This document shows positions 1,767 through 40,590 of a stretch of DNA of 64,000 nt, one piece after another. The notes beneath the pieces were generated by a model that did not search any database, was not told where the DNA came from, and worked only from the letters and a program-made list of their open reading frames with translations. The DNA comes from Cryobacterium sp. CG_9.6 (GTDB lineage: Bacteria > Actinomycetota > Actinomycetes > Actinomycetales > Microbacteriaceae), in contig NZ_JARXUZ010000001.1 in the NCBI RefSeq assembly GCF_029893365.1, positions 682,001 through 746,000 on the forward strand. The letters are read 5' to 3'. Position 1 is the first letter of the stretch. Each line of letters starts with the position of its first letter. The translations under genes were made by a program, and so were the position numbers.

Positions 1767-3281
1767 ATGACCAAGTACGTACTCGCTATTGACCAGGGCA
1801 CCACAAGCTCACGAGCTATTATCTTCGACAAGTCCGGTTCGATCATCTCGACCGGTCAGCTTGAGCACGAGCAGATCTTCCCGAAAGCCGGCTGGGTCGA
1901 GCACGACCCCAAGGAGATCTGGGATAACACTCGTGAAGCCATCGGCCAGGCACTGTCCAAGGCCAACATCACCCGTCACGACATCGAAGCCGTGGGCATC
2001 ACCAACCAGCGTGAAACCGCCGTGGTGTGGGACAAGAACACGGGTGTGCCCGTGTATAACGCCATCGTCTGGCAGGACACCCGCACCCAGCCCATCGTTG
2101 ACCGCCTCGCAGCCGATGGTGGCGTCGAACGGTTCAAGCCGAAGGTCGGCCTGCCGCTGGCCACCTACTTCTCCGGTACCAAGATCGTCTGGATTCTCGA
2201 GAACGTTGAGGGTGCACGGGCGAAAGCGGATGCCGGCGACCTCCTCTTCGGCACCACGGACTCGTGGGTCCTCTGGAACCTCACCGGCGGCACGGAGGGC
2301 GGCGTGCACGCCACCGACGTCACCAACGCGAGCCGCACCATGTTCATGGACCTTGAGACCCTCCAGTGGGACGACGAGATCCTGGCCGCGTTCGATGTGC
2401 CCAAGTCGATGCTTCCCGAGATCAAGTCCTCCTCGGAGGTCTACGGCATTGCCAGCGACAACAGCCTGCTGCGGGAGGTGCCGATCGCCGGAATCCTGGG
2501 CGACCAGCAAGCCGCCACATTCGGGCAGGCAGCGTTTGACCAGGGTGAGGCCAAGAACACCTACGGCACCGGTAACTTCCTGATTTTCAACACCGGTACC
2601 GAAATCGTGCACTCCAAGAACGGCCTGCTCACCACCGTGGGCTACAAGCTCGGCGATGCGCCGGTGCACTACGCCCTCGAGGGTTCGATCGCTGTGACCG
2701 GTTCATTGGTGCAGTGGATGCGTGACAACCTCGGCATGATCAAGAATGCCGCCGAGATCGAAGACCTGGCCAAGACCGTCGATGACAACGGTGGAGCCTA
2801 CTTCGTGCCGGCCTTCTCGGGACTCTTTGCGCCGTACTGGCGCTCGGATGCTCGTGGTGCCCTCGTGGGTCTCACCCGCTATGTGAACAAGGGCCACATC
2901 GCCCGTGCCGCGCTGGAAGCAATCGCCTACCAGACCCGTGAGGTTCTCGACGCGGTGAACGCTGACTCCGGGGTGCCGCTGACCGAGCTCAAGGTCGACG
3001 GCGGAGCCACGGCCAACGACCTGCTCATGCAGTTCCAGGCCGACATCATCGGCGTCCCGGTGGTTCGGCCTGTGGTCGCCGAGACCACCGCTCTCGGTGC
3101 CGCCTACGCGGCTGGCCTCGCGGTGGGCTTCTGGAGTGGTCTGGACGACCTTCGTGCCAACTGGCAGGAAGATTCCCGCTGGGAGCCGTCGATGGACAAG
3201 GACGAGGCTGAGCGCCTGCTCCGCAACTGGAAGAAGGCCGTCACGAAGACCCTCGACTGGGTTGACGAAGACGTGCGCTAA
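1767..3281 (+). CDS. glpK: Glycerol kinase
   Basis: A 504-residue FGGY-family kinase that phosphorylates glycerol at the expense of ATP in the cytoplasm. The N-terminal phosphate-binding loop DQGTTSSR starts at residue 9, and the C-terminal ATPase half carries the [10 protein letters not shown] segment typical of FGGY kinases. Length matches the bacterial enzyme (about 500). The ATG start has AAAGGAG seven bases upstream. It follows glpF closely and is followed by a terminator hairpin, so the operon ends here. With glpD and glpF it completes conversion of external glycerol to dihydroxyacetone phosphate. Confidence 0.96.
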
Positions 3282-3376: not shown

Positions 3377-3472
3377 GTTGCTACTTCCGGAGATCCGCGG
3401 CTAATCCTGCCTGTGCCCCCGGACCAGTCCTGCTGCGGTCTCGCGGGCGCGGGGATCTCCTGAAGTAGCAAC
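3377..3472. repeat. Island 1 palindromic repeat, copy A
   Basis: A 96-bp element with terminal inverted repeats: GTTGCTACTTCCGGAGATCC at the left end matches the reverse complement of the right end at 19 of 20 positions. The centre is GC-rich and not conserved with copies B or E. The 25 bases that include its right end and 12 bases beyond (3460-3484) recur exactly at copy B (3749-3773). No coding potential is evident. It lies between the glpK terminator and the nuclease gene. Confidence 0.8.
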
Positions 3473-3484
3473 CGGAGCGTCTGG

Positions 3485-3665
3485 ACACTGTGGCGGATGG
3501 CTGAGTTCAGGGTCTGGGCTCTGCGGCCTGATCACTGGGCCTTCGTGGCTGGGTCCTAGGTTTCCGTACGGTGGGGCCGGGGCCTGGGGGTTTCGGAAGC
3601 GGGTATCGAGCCGGGTGGCAACCGGTGGCATCCGCTCGACCGGCTGGGCGTCGGGTGCTGCTCGT
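3485..3665. other. Non-coding spacer between repeats A and B
   Basis: A G-rich stretch with no convincing open frame or structured element. A long open frame crosses it on the plus strand, but it also crosses repeat B and matches no family before position 3889. Confidence 0.5.
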
Positions 3666-3761
3666 GTCCCTACTTCAGGAGATCCACTGTTCCGGGGGCT
3701 TTTTCACCCGGATCAGTGCGGGGGTCACGACCGAGGAGTATCGATTTCCTGAAGTAGCAAC
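3666..3761. repeat. Island 1 palindromic repeat, copy B
   Basis: A second 96-bp copy with ends GTCCCTACTTCAGGAGATCC and the inverse CCTGAAGTAGCAAC. The left tip has drifted at two positions. It ends 127 bases before the nuclease gene start. Same length as copy A, with a different interior. Confidence 0.75.
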
Positions 3762-3888
3762 CGGAGCGTCTGGTACCCGACTGCGGAGGGCATGGCAGAG
3801 TCCCTCCACGGGAGCGGATGCCTGGGAGGTGTCCACAGTTACGGCCTCCTGCGACACACATCGAGGTGCGGCCGGCCACAGTATTCGC

Positions 3889-4779
3889 ATGACGTGGACC
3901 GAGTACTTCGCCGGCGCAAATCGCACAATTATCGAAACGGCAGAACTGCGGGCCGCGGGAGCAACCTGCCGACTACTCAGAACTGCAGTCACCGAGGGGT
4001 CGCTGATACGGGTGCGCCGCGGGTACTACGCGCTTCCCGCAACCAGCCCGCGCGTCATCGAGGCCGTGCGCGTAGGTGGTCGGCTTGGGTGCATTTCAGC
4101 GATAGCGGATGCCGGCGGCTTTGCCTTCGAGGGCCAGTACACCCACATTCACGTCGGCCCCGGGGCATCTCGGCTGCGGGCACCCCAGAACCGTCTTCAG
4201 CGCCTCACAGAGGAGACTCGCAACGGAGTTGAACTCCACTGGGACGAACTGCGACACCCGTCGGACGGCAACGAATTCAGCATCGGGCTGCCGGACGCGC
4301 TCATTCAGATCTTTCGCTGTCAGCAGCCGAGACTTGCTTTGGCCACCGTCGACAATGTCCTGCACCTGCGGTTGCTCCCTTGGGATGCTGTGGCGGGCAT
4401 ATTCGCCGCATTGCCGGCGGACCTGCAGTATCTTCAATCCCGCATTGACGCACGCACCGAGTCGGGTCAGGAAACTGTGCTGCGGTGGATCGTTCTGGAG
4501 GCGGGCATCGAGTGCGAGATTCAGGTCACCATCGAACCTGTGGGACGCGTCGACCTGCTGATTGCCGGCTTCCTCGTCGTCGAGGCAGATAGTCGCTCGT
4601 TCCACGATGGCTGGGACCGTCATTCCGCAGATCGCACTCGAGACTGTGATCTGGCCGCCCTCGGCTACGTGACCTATCGTGCGCTCTACAAGGACATTAT
4701 GTACCACCCCGAGCGGGTGATCGCGGCGATTATGGGCCTCTTGGCCACGCACGAGCACTTCCGCACCGTCATCGTGTGA
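3889..4779 (+). CDS. AbiEi-like N-terminus with PD-(D/E)XK (DUF559/Vsr-like) C-terminus, nuclease candidate
   Basis: A 296-residue protein. The first ~80 residues look like the winged-helix region of AbiEi-type regulators (a segment ending in RVRRGYYAL). The C-terminal ~100 residues fit the DUF559/Vsr-like PD-(D/E)XK fold: VDLLIAG, then VVEADSRSFH, then DRTRDCDLAALGY and a terminal YRALYKDI segment, placing the expected acidic metal ligands at D of VDLL and E/D of VEAD. The Lys of the classical motif is replaced by Ser-Arg, so nuclease activity is uncertain. The frame is open further upstream to 3571, but that part overlaps repeat B and matches nothing, so the ATG at 3889 is preferred. Two hairpin repeats lie on each side. 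Substrate and role are unknown; annotation pipelines usually call such genes type IV toxin-antitoxin AbiEi family. Confidence 0.72.
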   Translation: MTWTEYFAGANRTIIETAELRAAGATCRLLRTAVTEGSLIRVRRGYYALPATSPRVIEAVRVGGRLGCISAIADAGGFAFEGQYTHIHVGPGASRLRAPQNRLQRLTEETRNGVELHWDELRHPSDGNEFSIGLPDALIQIFRCQQPRLALATVDNVLHLRLLPWDAVAGIFAALPADLQYLQSRIDARTESGQETVLRWIVLEAGIECEIQVTIEPVGRVDLLIAGFLVVEADSRSFHDGWDRHSADRTRDCDLAALGYVTYRALYKDIMYHPERVIAAIMGLLATHEHFRTVIV

Positions 4780-4831
4780 GGCGGCACCTGGTCGGCCGGC
4801 GGCCGAGGCGGGTGGTCGGGTAAGCAAGGCT

Positions 4832-4928
4832 GTTGCTACTTCAGGAGATCCGGGCTGGGCAGGCCAAGTAGCCCACGGAGTAGTGCGGCAGTGGCGGGCG
4901 CCGCCGGTGTTTCTCCTGAATTAGCAAC
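4832..4928. repeat. Island 1 palindromic repeat, copy C
   Basis: A 97-bp element with ends GTTGCTACTTCAGGAGATCC and CTCCTGAATTAGCAAC. It is nearly identical over its whole length to copy D, 172 bases downstream, and the similarity extends about 20 bases to the left (GGTGGTCGGGT), so C and D are a recent direct duplication. It begins 52 bases after the nuclease stop codon. Confidence 0.8.
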
Positions 4929-5003
4929 CGGGCCGCCGTGCAAGGGTTCGCTGCCTGACCTGGATGGTGTGCGGCCGTGGGTGGGTGGTCGGGTGAGCCG
5001 GGT

Positions 5004-5100
5004 GTCGCTACTTCAGGAGATCCGGGCTGGGCGGGCCAGCTAGCCCGCGGAGTAGTGCGGCAGTGGCGGGCGCCGCCGGCGTTTCTCCTGAAGCAGCAAC
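5004..5100. repeat. Island 1 palindromic repeat, copy D
   Basis: A 97-bp element nearly identical to copy C, with ends GTCGCTACTTCAGGAGATCC and CTCCTGAAGCAGCAAC. It ends 31 bases from the stop codon of the converging HAD gene and could serve as a transcription barrier between the two. Confidence 0.8.
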
Positions 5101-5131: not shown

Positions 5132-5866
5132 CTACGGGGCCAGCGTCGCGGCGAGGGGCGCGAGGCCCTCCAAGCGGATGACGCCCAGGCGTGCGGCGTC
5201 CGCGGCGTCACTCTCGGACACGGATGCCCCGCGCCGGTCGAGCCAGACCGCAGTGAGTCCGGCTTCCGCAGCCCCGATCGCGTCCGTGTGGATGCGGTCT
5301 CCCACATACACGGTGGCGTCCGGGCTGACTCCGAACAGTGAGCACGCGTGCTGGAAGATGCGCGGGTCCGGCTTCGCGTAACCAAGTTCCCCGGACGCAA
5401 CGACCTGTTCCACCCGGTTGCTGAGGCCAATGCCGCGCACCTTCGCGCTCTGGAACGTCAGATCCCCGTTCGTGATCAGCCCAACGCGCACACCGGGGAT
5501 GCGGGCTGCAAGCTCGTCCAAGCAGGGAAGAGAATCGGCGTGCAGCCGCCAGCTCTCGCGGTAATGCAGAAAGTAACCCTCGAACCATGCGCTCGCCTCC
5601 GAGGCAGAGAGCGTCACGCCATAGGCCGCGGCGAAGTCGCGCGCCCGTTCCCGGCGCTGCCCGTGAAAGTCGAGCGACCCGGCCAGATAGGAATGATAGT
5701 GCTGCTCCTCCAGGCTTCGCCACAGCGTCTGCGCCCCCACCGGATCCGCCGCGGTAAAGGCTCCACCCACGACGGCGAGATGCCGCACAATTCCATCCTC
5801 CACCGCCTCGAGATGAGCAAAGAGGGTGTCGTCGAGGTCGAATAAAACGAGTCGAATCGTAGTCAT
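5132..5866 (-). CDS. HAD-superfamily phosphatase
   Basis: A 244-residue cytoplasmic hydrolase with all four HAD motifs: FDLDDTLF near residue 9 (nucleophile Asp), LITNG near 129, the Lys of YAKPDPRIF near 162 and VGDRIHTD near 186. The helical cap between motifs I and II has the size seen in YjjG/pyrimidine 5'-nucleotidase-like members, so a nucleotide or sugar phosphate is the likely substrate; the exact one cannot be read from sequence. The ATG is preceded by GAGGA five bases upstream. trpS lies in the same direction, downstream-first order being HAD after trpS with a 49-base gap, so co-transcription is possible. Confidence 0.85.
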   Translation of the reverse strand: MTTIRLVLFDLDDTLFAHLEAVEDGIVRHLAVVGGAFTAADPVGAQTLWRSLEEQHYHSYLAGSLDFHGQRRERARDFAAAYGVTLSASEASAWFEGYFLHYRESWRLHADSLPCLDELAARIPGVRVGLITNGDLTFQSAKVRGIGLSNRVEQVVASGELGYAKPDPRIFQHACSLFGVSPDATVYVGDRIHTDAIGAAEAGLTAVWLDRRGASVSESDAADAARLGVIRLEGLAPLAATLAP

Positions 5867-22468: not shown

Positions 22469-23236
22469 GAACGGTGTCGCCTCGTGCGCGACGTGCCATC
22501 TTCTGCCCCGTGGCGCTGCGCCATGGGGCCGATGGTGTCACTTCGCGCGTGACACGCCATCTTGTGCCCCTTAGCGCTGGCGACCTGACATCTTGTGCCC
22601 CATGGCGCTGCTCCATGGGGCCGATGGTGTCACTTCGCGTGTGACACGCCATCTTGTGCCCCTTGGCGCTGGCTGGCCGCCATGCCACGCATCTTGGCTG
22701 CCCCTTATTATTTCTTCCGTGGGTGCAAGGTGTCACTTCATGGGTGACTCGTGAGCTTGGGCCTCTTCGCGCTTGTGACTCGCCAACATCTGCCCCTTGG
22801 TGTGCGATTATGGGGCAGATGTTGTCACCTCGTGGCGCTGGTAGCCCATCATCTTGAGCCCCCGCCTCGTGGGGCAGATGTTGTCACCTCGCGTGTGACG
22901 TGCCATCTTGCGCCCCTTCGCGTAGCTTCATGGGGCAAATGTTGTCACCTCGCGTGTGACACGCCAGCTTCTGCCCCTGGCGGCCGTTACCCGCGAGCAT
23001 CTGCCCCTTGGTGCCCGCCCCGTGGGGCAAATGTCGTCACCTCGCGTGTGATGTGCCATCTTGCGCCCCTTCGCGCAGCTTCATGGGGCAGATGTTGTCA
23101 CCTCGGGGGTGACTCGCGTGCATCTGCCCCTTGGTGCCCCGCCCATGGGGCAAATGTTGTCACCTCGCGTGTAACACGCCAGCATCTGCCCCTTGGTGCC
23201 CGCCCATGGGGCAGATGTTGTCACCTCGTGGCCGAC
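22463..23236. repeat. Island 2 array of about 11 interrupted hairpin units
   Basis: Non-coding array. A typical unit runs GGGGCAGATG, TTGTCACC, TCGCG, GTGTGACACGCCAG, CATCTGCCCC: an outer 10-bp stem enclosing an inner GTCAC/GTGAC stem, about 46 bases long, with a TTGGTGCCCGCCCAT-like linker. Clear GGGGCARATGT(T/C)GTCAC starts occur at 22812, 22871, 22932, 23023, 23085, 23147 and 23208, at roughly 60-base spacing (one gap of 91 holds an extra half unit). Older variants with GGGGCCGATGGTGTCAC begin at 22525 and 22617, and more degenerate ones at 22463 and about 22720. The last unit has lost its right half. There are no unique spacers, so this is not a CRISPR array. It fills the gap between deoA and the nuclease gene. 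Confidence 0.85.
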
Positions 23237-23291
23237 GTGCCACTTTTCACCCGCGCTGCAGGCGAAAACCTCAGGCCCCGTCGCACCGGGG

Positions 23292-24194
23292 CTAGGGGAA
23301 CCAGCCTCTTGAACGCAGGGCCTCATCGACTGCGGTGCGCACCCACTCGCGCGACGATCCCTTGCGCACGGTGACGACGAGCCAGCCCGCAGCCCGAACA
23401 TCGTAGAGACGCTCGGCATCCCGGTTGAACTGTACGTCGTCGAGGCGGTGCTGTTCCCCGTCATATTCCACAAGAACCCTGTACTTGATATAGACAAGAT
23501 CCCCTCGGACACGCGGTTTCCCCACGGGCAGCGACAGGTACACATTGGATTCCGGCTCAGGAAAGCCGCAGTCCAGCAAGAAGAGCCGCAAGTGCGTCTC
23601 CCGGCGAGACTCCACGCGTGGCCTCACAAGCGCAGCAGCCTCACGCAGGCCGCGGGCACCTCGCTGGCCGGCGTGCTCCGCCACCGCGTCGGCGAGAGCG
23701 GATGCGTCGGCGAGCGCAAACTCTGCCCGCAGCAGGTGGTCACCGGCCGCGACCAGGTCGTCCCGCCCAAGAACAGCTGCCAGTTGGCACCAGGTGGCTA
23801 TGGGGTCCAGCACGGGCATCCCGGCCAGCAGGCGCACGCGTGGCCGAATCTCGGTGCAGTGACCGATGATCCCACGCGTTCGGATGGCGCGGAGGGGGGT
23901 CACGACCGAAACGTGAAGGCGCCTATCCGATTGGAGGCTTATGGGCAGGGGCATACCGTGGAGAAGGGCGGCCGTGGCGTGACTGAAGAAAGCGTCTGCC
24001 GGCATCCGCTGTTGAAAGGCTTGGCAGCGATCCTCCGCGGTGTCCGGGCCTCCCGCAGCGATACATATGCCCCAAAACGGATGCTCGACATCGCTCGATC
24101 GCCGACGTTTGGCCGAAATTCCCGCGGCGTGCGCCTGCGCAGCGGTGAATGCGCCGTGTGTAAAGCCAGGGGGAAGAGGAGTCCGGGGATGCAT
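23292..24194 (-). CDS. DUF559-family PD-(D/E)XK endonuclease-like protein
   Basis: A 300-residue protein of unknown role. The N-terminal half resembles the wing-helix/AbiEi-like region seen with these proteins in Micrococcales (FTAAQAHAAGIS start, FFSHATAALLHGMPLP near residue 95). The C-terminal ~110 residues fit the DUF559/Vsr-like fold: RGDLVYIKYRVLVEYDGEQH (D, then E-x-D; residues near 232-250) and a basic RDAERLYDVRAAGWLVVTV segment. Here the acidic core VEYDG is the classic form, so it is more likely to be catalytic than the island 1 protein. It lies on the opposite strand to deoA and add and is flanked by hairpin repeats on both sides. Substrate unknown. Confidence 0.75.
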   Translation of the reverse strand: MHPRTPLPPGFTHGAFTAAQAHAAGISAKRRRSSDVEHPFWGICIAAGGPDTAEDRCQAFQQRMPADAFFSHATAALLHGMPLPISLQSDRRLHVSVVTPLRAIRTRGIIGHCTEIRPRVRLLAGMPVLDPIATWCQLAAVLGRDDLVAAGDHLLRAEFALADASALADAVAEHAGQRGARGLREAAALVRPRVESRRETHLRLFLLDCGFPEPESNVYLSLPVGKPRVRGDLVYIKYRVLVEYDGEQHRLDDVQFNRDAERLYDVRAAGWLVVTVRKGSSREWVRTAVDEALRSRGWFP

Positions 24195-24304: not shown

Positions 24305-24383
24305 GTCACCTGACAACTTGCGCCTCTTGGAGTGCAGGGAAGGGGCGCAAGTTGGTGGGTGACGAAATCCATGGGGCAGAATG
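24305..24383. repeat. Diverged hairpin repeat upstream of the island 2 nuclease gene
   Basis: Left arm GTCACC-tga-CAACTTGCGCC (24305-24324) pairs with GGCGCAAGTTG-gtg-GGTGAC (24344-24363), the same inner/outer stem design as the array units, with a different stem sequence. It is followed by a half unit starting ATGGGGCAGAATGT at 24371. The rest of the 319-base gap before add holds the consensus-like TTATCCACA at 24232 and the add promoter; nothing else was recognised. Confidence 0.6.
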
Positions 24384-40505: not shown

Positions 40506-40590
40506 GTCGCTAATTCAGGAGATTGGGCTCCTTTACGCCGCGACACGCGTGTCTGTGGGCCGTTGGGGGAGAATATCCTGAACTAGCGAC
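40506..40590. repeat. Solo copy E of the island 1 palindromic repeat
   Basis: An 85-bp element with ends GTCGCTAATTCAGGAGATT and the inverse CCTGAACTAGCGAC. Relative to copies A and C both tips changed together (GTTGC/GCAAC to GTCGC/GCGAC), so base pairing is kept. It sits in the accD-birA divergent gap, 49 bases before birA, with no nuclease gene nearby. Confidence 0.75.

Follow-up and report, generated by a model that had tools for sequence, protein, structure and literature searches.

The p1 locus

The window, the whole 64-kb stretch of DNA analysed, carries the gene p1 between glpK, which ends at 3281, and a HAD gene on the minus strand (5132-5866). Two imperfect palindromes lie to the left of p1 and two to the right, so that the four ~96-bp elements described between glpK and the HAD gene by the first-pass annotation were recovered, at 96-97 bp. 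The second gene that it had placed among palindromes of another family was likewise found: p2 has a ~61-bp array past its stop codon and a hairpin before its start codon. The features of the window are as follows.

3377-3472, no strand assigned: palindrome 1, type A, 96 bp, upstream of p1
3666-3761, no strand assigned: palindrome 2, type A, 96 bp, with 127 bp from its end to the p1 start codon
3889-4779, plus strand: gene p1, 296 aa, ATG start, an AbiEi-antitoxin-like half plus a Vsr/I-Bth0305I-like nuclease half
3889-4449, plus strand: AbiEi-like region of p1, residues 1-187, matching AbiEi antitoxin 6y8q, with an N-terminal winged helix
4456-4776, plus strand: nuclease region of p1, residues 190-296, with invariant E195, D222, E232, D234, H239 and D248
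4832-4928, no strand assigned: palindrome 3, type A, 97 bp, 52 bp beyond the p1 stop codon
5004-5100, no strand assigned: palindrome 4, type A, 97 bp, in a 105-nt repeat that is 90% like that of palindrome 3
22470-23264 (left edge approximate), no strand assigned: tandem array of ~61-bp palindromic units of the second type, beyond the 3' end of p2
23295-24194, minus strand: gene p2, 300 aa, a remote sister of p1, AbiEi-like plus DUF559/Vsr-like
24305-24363, no strand assigned: p2-type hairpin preceding the p2 start codon
40506-40590, no strand assigned: shortened lone type A copy, 85 bp, far from p1, with a degenerate copy at the same site in the relative G023

All eight ends of palindromes 1-4 fit GTTGCTACTTCAGGAGA with 0-2 mismatches. 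Ends of this kind (≤3 mismatches) occur 10 times in the window compared with 0.07 expected from shuffles, and the two that are not at p1 are both ends of the 40506-40590 copy. Single-stranded DNA folding gave z-scores against shuffles of -6.4, -4.4, -5.3 and -1.6 for palindromes 1-4 in order, the last value making palindrome 4 weak by this measure. An Rfam scan of the window at gathering thresholds returned zero matches.

The p1 protein

A structure model and fold search joined an AbiEi-antitoxin-like half (6y8q) to a Vsr/I-Bth0305I-like nuclease half, bearing out the Vsr-like fold previously proposed for p1. The acidic nuclease residues are invariant in the p1 family, and p1 is probably a DNA-cutting enzyme. 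REase_MTES_1575 (PF18741) matched 37 of 43 family members and DUF559 matched 33 of 43 (E up to 0.01); PADLOC AbiEi models matched the N-terminal part of both proteins (E 1.7e-6 for p1, 1.6e-7 for p2), and NCBIfam gave no match to either. Y1_Tnp had no match in p1 and the whole-genome search with PF01797 gave zero (8 of 14 control genomes were positive); p1 is therefore not a RAYT. The AbiEii toxin was not found in the two genes on each side of p1 at this locus (Pfam: MIP, FGGY kinase, HAD hydrolase and tRNA-synt_1b). In many genera the family gene sits at the glpK/HAD/trpS locus, and trpS lies within 2.5 kb of it in 47 of 79 named loci, a placement that speaks against the gene itself still homing.

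Palindromes beside p1 homologues

Cryobacterium and its relatives are cold-loving bacteria, and 53 of 57 genomes from the genus have a p1 homologue (E up to 1e-5), as do 181 of 299 genomes in a family sample (E up to 1e-20). Palindromes were sought at 75 loci: 30 from the genus search, 20 picked from lower in its list (a run of 19 that passes over one entry, and a further locus of G023) and 26 from the family sample, minus the duplicate L156 (same gene as L111), with many weaker matches of both searches lying outside this set. With one inverted-repeat detector, a palindrome was present within 500 bp at 67 of the 75 loci and on both sides at 42, compared with 17 of 196 and 1 of 196 control open reading frames (ORFs) under the same detector, the controls being ORFs of ≥250 aa in 400 kb from 20 stretches of 17 genomes, all of the same genus. 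The enrichment over random genes, for which the first-pass annotation had proposed a test, is thus present. By identity to p1, palindromes were detected at 15/15 loci above 55%, 29/33 at 45-55%, 7/8 at 40-45%, 9/11 at 35-40% and 7/8 below 35%; given the control rate, short or one-sided hairpins in the weaker bands may be chance. The 31 most distant loci (L252-L282), scanned apart and outside the 75, had a hairpin on some side in 16 cases and few convincing pairs; L204-L251, which largely come from genomes already covered, lie outside the palindrome scan. The distance from the nearest upstream palindrome to the start codon has a median of 109 bp (quartiles 92-139; 51 loci), and the downstream palindrome follows the stop codon at a median of 42 bp (quartiles 8-72; 58 loci).

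Subfamily-specific arms, a shared core and copy number

The palindromes are ~92-100 bp long with a central core in common, and their arms change with the protein subfamily. The type A arm of G000 (the own genome) and G023, 75% identical, is GTTGCTA[C/G]TTCAGGAGATC. Type B arms are GTGGCTAATTCAGGAAAT in G020 and G037 and GTGGCTAACTCAGGAGATC in the 57-60% identity group, the type D arm of the 46-52% group is TGCATAACTCCTGCAAATT, and the 37% group carries GTTCCGAATTCAGGAGTTG; other groups carry still other arms, and further distinct arms occur in Diaminobutyricibacter and in each of two paralogues from a single Amnibacterium genome. At a given locus the left and right arms match each other (median score 14), which arms of different loci do not (median 6), and arms differ in 12 pairs of paralogues from the same genome. 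Arm similarity correlates with protein identity (Spearman 0.63, a value reached in 0 of 2,000 permutations; shared ancestry uncorrected). The first-pass annotation had expected each subfamily to have its own palindrome and repeat type to track the protein, and both expectations agree with these data. The core behaves otherwise than the arms and has motifs common to several types: GTGTTT or its complement occurs in the central 28 bases of 27/72 A, 5/48 B and 14/128 D elements compared with 18/5,000 random windows, CTGGTCC is central in 5 A and 12 B elements (24/5,000 random windows) and GGAATTCC in 11 D elements (2/5,000).

Copy number follows the gene in three subfamilies, with exceptions. Counted with strict patterns, and with genomes treated as independent, which they are not (shared ancestry uncorrected), type A palindromes are present in 2/2 genomes with a type A gene and 0/55 others, type B in 12/13 genomes with the gene (mean 6.9) and 11/44 without (mean 0.52), and type D in 20/22 with (mean 8.3) and 16/35 without (mean 1.66). 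Strict type D copies also occur in G015 (11) and G019 (5), neither of which has a close p1 homologue. Such gene-less B and D genomes, with up to 11 D copies in G015, count against a strict gene-copy rule; these copies may be relics or the product of another mover.

Type A palindromes are dispersed in the genome

The 3.54-Mb own genome has 99 places with a GTTGCTACTTCAGGAGA-type end (≤3 mismatches) compared with 21 for a reversed control pattern, and paired ends define at least 48 palindromes, spread over 18 of the 20 stretches analysed; 44 of these copies lie away from p1. Thus, the hairpins that had been described as private to the gene are not confined to the p1 locus, and what stands of that description is that their arms are specific to a protein subfamily. 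The type A palindrome being a dispersed family, the arrangement at p1 by itself would prove little. The first-pass annotation had also held that the same palindromes standing beside unrelated genes, with no gene-repeat correlation, would speak against the association; 44 of 48 copies do stand beside unrelated genes, because a dispersed repeat family gives just that, and the absence of a gene-repeat correlation is rejected.

Seven of the 48 copies are solitary; the rest are clustered, and the spacing in clusters ranges from 138 to 289 bp, most often 170-217 bp. With a crude gene caller, an overlap of more than 60 bp with a gene of >200 aa was found for none of the 48 copies, and target-site duplications were not evident by eye in their flanks. 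The 22 clusters lie between 10 convergent, 9 codirectional and 3 divergent gene pairs (convergent pairs in general, 28/123); the gene caller misread p1 (as an antisense ORF) and the L044 gene, and hand correction shifts individual clusters from one class to another while the numbers stay at 10, 9 and 3. Single genes unrelated to p1 also lie between palindrome clusters, namely an HTH_67 family gene (L044:4122-5192) and a methyltransferase (L045:4192-5133). The arrays L032 (C1 ~347.8 kb) and L039 (C1 ~788.5 kb) have ~890 bp in common at 88% identity, in inverted orientation, as a duplicated block ~440 kb apart. The long fourth copy of the L032 array was considered as an autonomous parent and rejected, its palindrome being split by a Mutator-type (PF00872, IS256-like) element with the 9-bp repeat CCGCGTGTT. 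This insertion (L032:4395-5783; C1:348394-349782) encodes a 428-aa PF00872 transposase, lies inside the central hairpin of the palindrome with CCGCGTGTT on both sides, and in this placement resembles IS elements that target REPs.

Turnover of copies between relatives

Comparison of G000 with G023, in which gain is indistinguishable from loss, divergence of the intergenic DNA has erased exact ends and L042 was left out, identified palindromes of G000 without a G023 counterpart at five places (679813, L034, L035, the four-copy array of L040 and the left pair of L044). Tandem copies are more numerous in G000 at L033, L043, L048 and the right side of L044, and the L037 site has a degenerate copy in G023. 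At the p1 locus itself, G000 has two palindromes on the left and two on the right, and G023 has one and two. Most sites compared between G009 and G010 are common to both, with L283:6193 of G009 lacking a G010 counterpart (five G010 sites, L294, L295, L298, L300 and L302, were left out of this comparison). Copies therefore turn over, but slowly, and no transposition event was caught in either comparison.

Beside and between two palindromes, L283:6058-7191 of G009 is ~0.87 kb longer than L293:6088-6355 of G010, as if a segment had been gained or lost. Five near-identical G023 copies were considered as proof of recent spread and dropped, four of them sharing ~0.9 kb with a multicopy IS-like sequence. 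The palindromes beside this sequence are at C1:1578678, 1669759, 2082714 and 2633375 of G023 (L305, L306, L307 and L303); the sequence occurs also without a palindrome, and the IS may target or carry palindromes.

The second gene, p2

The protein p2 is only remotely related to p1: BLASTP gave no match between the two, and profile comparison aligned 253 columns (probability 96%, E 2e-9). Its homologues are accompanied by ~61-bp palindromes at 25 of 30 loci, on both sides at 9 of 30, with 17 p2-type hairpins in 400 kb of control under the same detector settings. The ends of p2-family palindromes are often CGCGAG and the inner part is subfamily-specific. In the own genome the p2 repeats form a local array, and a search of 216 kb from elsewhere in this genome gave no copy of their core. 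We note that a relative of p2 with 36% identity (L038; C1:759175-760080) lies ~2.7 kb from two type A palindromes.

Comparison with known systems

The pairing of p1 and its palindromes works like REP-RAYT without being one. RAYT genes, as described by Nunvar and co-workers in the parts of their account drawn on here, are flanked by REPs, co-evolve with them and evolve rapidly, and REP abundance is correlated with gene presence (PMC2817692). As in REP/RAYT systems (REPtrons, BIMEs and REPINs), a resident gene is flanked by palindromes, cognate copies are dispersed intergenically, gene and repeat co-evolve, the gene evolves fast and abundance tracks the gene. However, the p1 enzyme, with its AbiEi-like part and Vsr-like nuclease, is unrelated to RAYTs, a Y1 transposase was not found in the genome, and the p1 palindromes, ~92-100 bp with a common central core, are longer than the 20-40 bp given for REPs in the sections used of PMC3733652. 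Those sections also describe TIRYTs and TIRtrons, in which tyrosine transposase genes are flanked by long inverted repeats, some forming dispersed families (PMC3733652). The p1 system likewise has a gene flanked by unrelated inverted repeats, some in dispersed families, but with a PD-(D/E)XK-type nuclease in place of an HUH tyrosine transposase.

Homing endonucleases mobilise the reading frames that encode them (PMC3943268). p1 has the Vsr-like catalytic fold and conserved acidic residues of EDxHD/Vsr-like homing endonucleases such as I-Bth0305I; unlike I-Bth0305I, its gene mostly stays at one locus while small gene-less palindromes are dispersed, and its N-terminal half is AbiEi-like. That half has the fold (6y8q) of the AbiEi antitoxin of type IV toxin-antitoxin systems, which is described in the passages used of PMC3985639 as binding inverted repeats in its own promoter, 5'-TGTTGCTTTTA-N27-TAAAAGCAACA-3'. 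In contrast to AbiEi, p1 is fused to a nuclease, AbiEii was not found in four neighbour genes, and there are dozens of dispersed sites rather than one operator. The MTES_1575 domain is portrayed as a Vsr-type REase in a large HEPN/helicase/wHTH fusion, with no repeat association mentioned in the excerpted text of that account, unlike here (PMC3710099). No description of such a nuclease-palindrome pairing was found in open-access full text among the matches listed, and an earlier description elsewhere is possible.

Proposed mechanism and rival explanations

A gene of the p1 type and its palindromes almost certainly form a cognate pair. The first-pass annotation had suggested that enzyme and repeats belong together, and this is upheld by flanking that is kept across homologues, congruence of arm and protein, correlation of copy number with the gene, intergenic dispersal, presence and absence between two species, a nuclease fold with conserved acidic residues, and the similar behaviour of the p2 family. 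The enzyme's action on the repeats was suggested to be spreading, cutting or defence, and we infer that p1 would act by arm recognition, cutting and copying through repair. The N-terminal AbiEi-like half would recognise the inverted arms (14-20 bp) of the cognate palindrome, the C-terminal Vsr/EDxHD-like nuclease would cut or nick DNA at or near such arm sites, and repair from another copy would spread the palindromes, multiply them into tandem arrays and homogenise them. On this reading, a resident gene passed on vertically would maintain the palindromes as small non-autonomous elements, in the way that RAYTs maintain REPs. Arrays, dispersal and uniform arms would all follow if cuts were repaired from another copy, and we consider this mechanism as a whole, cognate pair included, somewhat more probable than its negation.

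The p1 protein could instead be an AbiEi-like repressor with an added nuclease-fold domain, its flanking palindromes autoregulatory operators, the dispersed copies a regulon or titrating sink, and ordinary tandem duplication the source of additional copies. AbiEi represses its own promoter via inverted repeats whose outer bases, TGTTGCT...AGCAACA in the parts used of PMC3985639, resemble type A ends, a likeness that may be chance, and the nearest upstream palindrome is fairly constant in position (median 109 bp from the start codon). However, the downstream palindrome is also fairly constant (median 42 bp past the stop codon), dispersed copies lean to convergent pairs (10/22 clusters, with divergent pairs at only 3/22), invariant acidic nuclease residues would be superfluous for a pure repressor, and copies of ~92-100 bp with a common core exceed what an operator needs. 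Regulation accounts for the flanking upstream copy but is a poorer fit to the copy downstream, to the lean towards convergent pairs and to the invariance of the nuclease residues, and we regard it as unlikely. A defensive role, in which the nuclease restricts incoming DNA or is a toxin and chromosomal palindromes serve as decoys, antidotes or self marks, is more doubtful still. Vsr-like nucleases are encountered in restriction contexts, the N-terminal part of both p1 and p2 is matched by PADLOC AbiEi models, and AbiE is a known abortive-infection system in the text consulted (PMC3985639); yet the PADLOC matches are confined to the DNA-binding part, AbiEii was not found among the four neighbour genes scanned, and in many genera the gene is found at glpK/trpS rather than in a defence island.

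That the palindromes are MITEs of an unrelated transposase, with the gene among them by chance, was our first thought, and this bystander reading was dropped after the orthologue scan. IS elements inside or beside some copies (L032 and G023) fit such hitchhiking, and the transposase search relevant to it covered Y1_Tnp only. Nevertheless, the association holds over a wide identity range with arms differing each time and between paralogues of the same genome, and copy number follows the cognate gene, so that hitchhiking appears very improbable. Least credible of all is co-inheritance of gene and palindromes at one locus with parallel divergence and no functional link, despite the presence of the gene at the glpK/HAD/trpS locus in many genera: functionless intergenic DNA is not expected to keep palindromic symmetry over such divergence, dispersed copies carry the same arms as local ones, paralogues elsewhere have their own flanking palindromes, and only 17/196 control ORFs have a palindrome within 500 bp.

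Meaning of the pairing

The cognate pair of nuclease and palindrome is set apart from REP-RAYT as a new kind because the enzyme is from another superfamily; if any pair of enzyme and cognate repeat counts as one kind, it would be a variant of the REP-RAYT kind. We tentatively propose, as a possibility rather than the expected outcome, a repeat class separate from REP/RAYT, in which an AbiEi-type reader and a site-specific Vsr-like nuclease spread palindromes by cut-and-repair (a homing that lacks a homing gene), the arms are re-invented by every nuclease lineage while the common central hairpin is kept, and at least two remote families (p1 and p2) exist in the Microbacteriaceae. If this is true, partnerships between enzymes and repeats arose more than once, RAYTs and TIRYTs being the tyrosine-transposase cases in the literature consulted. 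A group of DUF559/AbiEi-like proteins, listed in profile libraries as unknown or as antitoxins, would gain a suggested function, and the question of how such repeats spread would become directly testable. The p1 family would also supply naturally varied enzyme/site pairs, differing in specificity, for work on the evolution of DNA recognition.
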